DNA of 33,636 bases from Solirubrobacterales bacterium (GTDB lineage: Bacteria > Actinomycetota > Thermoleophilia > Solirubrobacterales > Solirubrobacteraceae), in the NCBI GenBank assembly GCA_025964155.1, contig JAOPZJ010000170.1, forward strand, positions 1 through 33,636, written 5' to 3'. Position numbers and translations under genes: made by a program. The notes under the pieces are model-generated. The model searched no databases and was not told the origin of the DNA. It saw only the letters and a list, made by a program, of their open reading frames with translations. Positions 10,129 to 10,241 of this stretch are shown here, in pieces (position 1 is the stretch's first letter; each line of letters starts with the position of its first letter).

Positions 10129-10215
10129 CCGTCGCGACTGGCGTTGTCAGGTGGGTCACCACCGGGGAGCGATGGCGTAGTGACCACCTCCGCCGCGCGC
10201 CTGGGCACCACCCTG
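10129..10215 (+). ncRNA. ZTP (pfl) riboswitch aptamer upstream of serC-serA
   Basis: CCGUCGC-GACUGGCG...CAGGUGGGUCACCACCGGGGA-GCGAUGG (7-bp P1 with one G-U, P2 GGUGG/CCACC) and 3' conserved GCGCCUGGGCA; matches the remembered pfl/ZTP core CUGGCG..CAGGUGGG..ACCACCGGGGAGCGA..CGCCUGGGCA. Confidence 0.88.
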
Positions 10216-10222
10216 TTTCCGA

Positions 10223-10235
10223 CCTCCACAGGAGG
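10223..10235 (+). promoter_or_regulatory. candidate SD-sequestering hairpin (expression platform)
   Basis: CCUCC-ACA-GGAGG directly covers the serC Shine-Dalgarno (GGAGG, 6 nt before GTG 10242). Confidence 0.55.
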
Positions 10236-10241
10236 CCATCC

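Follow-up and report, generated by a model that had tools for sequence, protein, structure and literature searches.

A ZTP/ZMP riboswitch in the serC-serA leader of Solirubrobacteraceae with a predicted translational expression platform

The window analysed here, a 33,636-nucleotide stretch of DNA from a Solirubrobacterales bacterium, contains what is by class a ZTP/ZMP (pfl) riboswitch in the 5′ leader of the one-carbon-supplying genes serC-serA; sister elements stand at glyA and purH. The class, its aptamer and its one-carbon logic are already known (PMC2864571, PMC7266159), and the published targets are purH, fhs, pfl, glyA and folD with some others (PMC2864571). A lineage-wide serine target for this standard class seems to be unreported: no ZTP-serC or ZTP-serine link was found in the literature searched, the class-defining paper of Kim et al. 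(2015) being outside its reach. We consider it probable that the element is a translational ON riboswitch that makes up the bulk of the serC-serA mRNA leader, in which the ribosome-binding site (RBS) of serC would pair with the L3/P3 strand in the ligand-free state. The arrangement probably serves to raise serine synthesis, and with it the supply of one-carbon units, in cells where these run low. This would widen the ZTP alarmone regulon from folate-carbon enzymes to the synthesis of serine, the carbon donor.

The aptamer and the serC-serA unit

A cmscan search of the whole window returned a single Rfam match, to the ZMP-ZTP family RF01750, in the gap between ilvC and serC (Table 1). Its score of 55.9 bits lies well above the gathering score of 39 (E = 1.2e-6) and it spans the full model (1-86). 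P1, P2, a 3-bp P3 and the pseudoknot between J1/2 GGCG and L3 CGCC are all present, so the class and strand assigned by the original prediction hold against the Rfam comparison it had called for; ligand binding is predicted from this class membership. The interval first given for the element, 10129-10241, starts 5 nt late and takes in the downstream leader.

Table 1 Features of the ilvC-serC-serA locus in window coordinates
Feature	Position	Strand	Basis or remark
ilvC	8907-9908		NF004017, TIGR00465
25-nt inverted repeat 3′ of ilvC	9923-9975		84% complementary, no T run
-10 element CGCTATCCT	10112-10120	+	TATCCT at 10115-10120; TAnnnT conserved in aligned leaders
ZTP/ZMP (pfl) riboswitch aptamer	10124-10213	+	RF01750, 55.9 bits
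P1	10126-10135 with 10169-10178	+	cmscan structure line
Inner pairs CU/GG	10138-10139 with 10165-10166	+	cmscan structure line
J1/2 GGCG	10140-10143	+	pseudoknotted with L3 CGCC 10198-10201; pairs invariant in 51/51 aptamers
P2 GUGG/CCAC	10151-10154 with 10159-10162	+	cmscan structure line
P3 (3 bp only) and loop L3	10192-10206	+	GCC 10192-10194 with GGC 10204-10206; cmscan, alignment
GCCUGGGC, L3/P3 3′ strand	10199-10206	+	proposed ligand-free partner of the serC RBS; two-state opening-cost tests with controls
Expression platform (leader tail)	10207-10241	+	sequence, folds
CCUGU in leader tail	10212-10216	+	can pair with ACAGG 10228-10232
CCUCC in leader tail	10223-10227	+	can pair with GGAGG 10231-10235
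Shine-Dalgarno AGGAGG of serC	10230-10235	+	6 nt upstream of GTG 10242
serC, phosphoserine transaminase	10242-11402	+	GTG start; TIGR01366, 641 bits (cutoff 402)
serA, phosphoglycerate dehydrogenase	11399-13006	+	TIGR01327, 574 bits (cutoff 454)

The target genes are those first named. Both serC and serA match their TIGR families well above the cutoffs and lie on the strand of the aptamer. Homologues of serC align from about 10242 onward and none earlier; the open reading frame starting at 9975 is therefore over-extended, as had been suspected, and the real start is the GTG preceded by the Shine-Dalgarno (SD) sequence, 28 nt from the 3′ end of the aptamer. The serC stop and serA start share an ATGA (11399-11402), an overlap that suggests translational coupling from serC to serA. 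The inverted repeat behind ilvC is possibly a terminator that parts ilvC from the serC unit, or some other element.

Conservation of the aptamer

When 51 aptamers of serC or serA are aligned, nine of the 12 helix-1 pairs carry two-sided changes. The structure as a whole has 72 two-sided cells, whereas shuffling gave 34.7 and slid controls never more than 24. P2 is nearly invariant. The GGCG:CGCC pseudoknot between J1/2 and L3, in all four pairs, and the conserved CGCCUGGGC are unchanged in 51/51. The three inner pairs of P3 form in every sequence, and the two outer P3 pairs of the Rfam model are unformed in 47-48 of the 51. P1 covariation supports the aptamer structure in the serC/serA elements.

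A promoter next to the aptamer

A simple promoter consensus scan of the window locus gave nothing; the -10 box surfaced only on aligning 65 leaders. Every one of the 65 serC leaders whose upstream sequence reaches far enough has a TAnnnT that starts 8-11 nt 5′ of the aptamer, 38 of them at one position, where chance would give about 0.2 per position. The consensus is CGCTAnACT. Such a box is also found at 46 of 49 glyA elements (consensus tGcTAGCCT). Since some 9 nt part the -10 box from the aptamer, transcription would be expected to start at the 5′ strand of P1, near window position 10126, and the leader would thus hold little beyond aptamer and SD. This points to a promoter for the serC unit that is independent of the upstream ilvC.

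The expression platform

The best-studied ZTP riboswitches use intrinsic terminators that act by invasion of P3 (PMC10907184, PMC13273304), and a rival reading is a transcriptional switch of this kind, with ligand governing termination ahead of serC. The leaders argue otherwise. A consensus scan found no terminator-like site at 9850-10300, only one of 68 serC tails has at least five T within 8 nt, and L3 is separated from the start codon by only 36-61 nt in serC leaders. Intrinsic termination is therefore unlikely in leaders this short and T-poor, control is most likely translational, and we regard a transcriptional switch as very unlikely here. Rho-dependent control of serC is conceivable. 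The translational platform that had been proposed from the window stands on these same features, switching itself being predicted from sequence.

The device first proposed for it fares differently. The CCUCC-ACA-GGAGG hairpin over the serC SD is indeed present at 10223-10235, and a platform in which the same aptamer tunes this local hairpin draws on its retention in the congener G356 and on a 4-bp form of it in the full-length minimum free energy (MFE) fold. Among 68 serC leaders, however, the hairpin is limited to these two, and any 5-bp local anti-SD hairpin occurs in only five; it is not a conserved device. Nor does any evident strand of the aptamer compete with it in a ligand-dependent manner, so the hairpin could be a static brake. 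We judge it unlikely to be the platform.

The feature that recurs in the leaders, and by the energy model the better conserved of the two, is pairing of the RBS with the L3/P3 strand of the aptamer. The best duplexes between L3/P3 or the early tail and the RBS often join UGGGC of L3/P3 to GCCCA or a similar sequence by the start codon, and CCUC just 3′ of P3 to GAGG of the SD. A leader's own pairs exceeded swapped pairs only for the strand spanning this junction (p = 0.002 over leaders, 0.03 over 15 genera); the duplex scan gave no own-versus-swapped signal for the SD against the 5′ aptamer, the P1-P3 linker or the spacer alone. The window counterpart would be GCGCC (10197-10201) with GGCGC (10244-10248), plus CCUGU with ACAGG.

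A two-state test compared the cost of opening the region from SD to start with the 8-mer GCCUGGGC available or held in the aptamer; its figures are energy-model statistics without pseudoknots. By genus, serC leaders showed an excess of 2.12 kcal/mol, and with shuffled spacers it was 0.45 (15/15 genera, p = 3e-5). It fell to 0.82 when the 8-mer alone was shuffled (15/15 genera), to 0.73 with the pre-SD spacer alone (13/15) and to 1.48 with the spacer between SD and start alone (11/15). With the RBS of another genus the excess was 1.57, the own RBS being higher in 10/15 genera (p = 0.05); covariation is thus modest, since a foreign RBS retains much of the effect. In glyA leaders the excess was 2.59, against 0.60 shuffled and 0.77 with swapped RBS; there the 8-mer control was clear (0.93, p = 0.02) and the two spacer controls weaker. 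Within the model these statistics support strand exchange, short of demonstrating it.

Equilibrium folds of whole leaders do not display such an exchange, which counts against the model, and as evidence of switching they were judged uninformative. The MFE z-score of the window leader is +1.09, its full-length MFE fold lacks the native aptamer, and pairing of the SD with the aptamer in the free fold (0.18) is below that of shuffled aptamers (0.28). A further point against the model is that the window RBS still costs 11 kcal/mol to open in the bound proxy.

Proposed mechanism and comparison with known systems

ZMP and ZTP accumulate when 10-formyl-THF runs short, and serine is the donor from which GlyA loads folate. 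Joint induction of SerC/SerA and GlyA would be physiologically coherent.

We propose that a dedicated promoter, independent of ilvC, starts the serC-serA transcript at P1. While ligand is absent, the weak 3-bp P3 and L3 would be open, and GCCUGGGC with the adjoining tail would pair with the serC RBS and close it. Shortage of 10-formyl-THF would raise ZMP/ZTP, which would bind the aptamer and lock P3 and the J1/2-L3 pseudoknot, so freeing the RBS. SerC would then be made, and SerA through translational coupling. The additional serine would feed GlyA, whose gene has its own ZTP switch in the same genome, and one-carbon folates would be restored. The ON direction is predicted because it is the freed L3/P3 strand that closes the RBS.

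Like other members of RF01750, the window element has complete P1, P2 and P3, the J1/2-L3 pseudoknot and the GACUGGCG and CGCCUGGGC cores; it shares the one-carbon theme and a P3 contested by the expression platform. It differs in its target, serC-serA rather than purH, fhs, pfl, glyA or folD (PMC2864571), in a P3 of only 3 bp, in a leader without terminator and in a predicted start at P1. In the pfl switch of Clostridium beijerinckii a terminator invades P3 unless ligand blocks it, giving an ON switch (PMC10907184). Downstream sequence would likewise invade P3/L3 here unless ligand is bound, with ON predicted, although the invader would be the RBS and control translational. Riboregulation of these serine genes is also known from the serC motif and from tandem glycine riboswitch or T-box(Ser) leaders of serC-serA (PMC7266159, PMC9481103); these are other RNA classes, and cmscan gave only RF01750 in the window.

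Distribution and gain or loss of the switch

The survey covered 399 genomes of the window's class, with 142 ZTP elements fetched and the downstream gene assigned by BLAST and clustering (glyA and purH clusters named by eye from their sequences). At least one element occurs in 101 of these genomes. serC is the commonest target found in the class (69/142), followed by glyA (49), a formate-dehydrogenase-alpha-like iron-sulfur protein (13), purH (5) and serA directly (3), with three elements left without assignment. The serine target is not peculiar to the window genome. That genome has two elements, one at serC and the other (C235:7327-7409, 59.4 bits) at glyA, and the two switches occur together in 34 genomes. 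Because it is conserved and frequently accompanied by a glyA switch, the serC element lends itself to testing as part of a coordinated response to 10-formyl-THF shortage, and the compact serC leaders would be handy for studying how ZTP switches may govern translation.

Of 34 ZTP elements found in other parts of the phylum, not one precedes serC; their targets include glyA, purH and folD (folD by eye), and one weak, sub-cutoff element lies before a serA-like gene. Nineteen named loci from other Actinomycetota with close SerC relatives, among them Mycolicibacterium, Nocardia, Streptomyces, Gordonia and Nocardioides, have no ZTP element (upstream sequence of one, L048, being too short to count). 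A Solirubrobacteraceae MAG (L034) has a 60.3-bit element 69 nt ahead of the aligned part of serC, in a leader identical to that of G326, which makes Solirubrobacteraceae, class Thermoleophilia, the most likely family of the surveyed serC-switch genomes.

In the sample of family genomes that was searched for both serC and the element, 92 have a serC that includes its N-terminus, and at least 67 of these carry the element, a lower bound because the survey filters were strict. Twenty of the 25 exceptions were rechecked with permissive filters and gave no ZTP match. ilvC lies directly upstream of serC in 18 of these 20, and in 12 of the 18 no more than about 20 nt part the two genes. It is upstream in 25 of 64 riboswitch-bearing loci, in which only 300-1500 nt of upstream sequence is visible. 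Since element-free relatives place serC behind ilvC, serC appears either to have its own promoter-riboswitch module or to be read through from ilvC, and the module seems to be inserted into, or lost from, the ilvC-serC gap as a whole. The relatives in question are L265-L284.

Such relatives imply that the element is dispensable, which would suit a non-functional relic; the other departure from our scheme, a ZTP-OFF switch, has a precedent in the OFF switches predicted in one case, moeA (PMC9481103). Yet 51 diverged sequences share one unchanged aptamer core, P1 covaries and the same genome carries a glyA switch, all of which speak against relic and OFF switch alike, and closure of the RBS by the freed L3/P3 strand predicts ON. 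Either would be extremely improbable. Taking the translational ON reading together with the distribution, we lean towards a serine-to-one-carbon ZTP regulon (serC-serA plus glyA) in Solirubrobacteraceae and some neighbours, in which the RBS would invade L3/P3 and the ilvC-serC gap would have gained or lost a whole promoter-aptamer-SD module of about 120-150 nt.

Three further arrangements were seen. In genus g17 (L158, L211, L152) the ZTP element is directly before serA and serC is on another contig; the one serC leader checked in this genus (L280) has no ZTP element. In another family of the class, f9, the gene behind the 13 elements noted above encodes a large iron-sulfur flavoprotein that carries NuoG and formate-dehydrogenase-alpha domains (L212:501-3198, L162, L170, L171, L174, L177, L191, L194, L195, L197, L199, L213 and L214), a target outside the list of purH, fhs, pfl, glyA and folD and possibly tied to formate supply. 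At L222 (G006:C85:25447-25542; 34.4 bits, under the Rfam cutoff) and L227 (57.4 bits, over it) the gene behind the ZTP match encodes an ABC-type substrate-binding protein that, judged by eye, is tungstate/molybdate-like.
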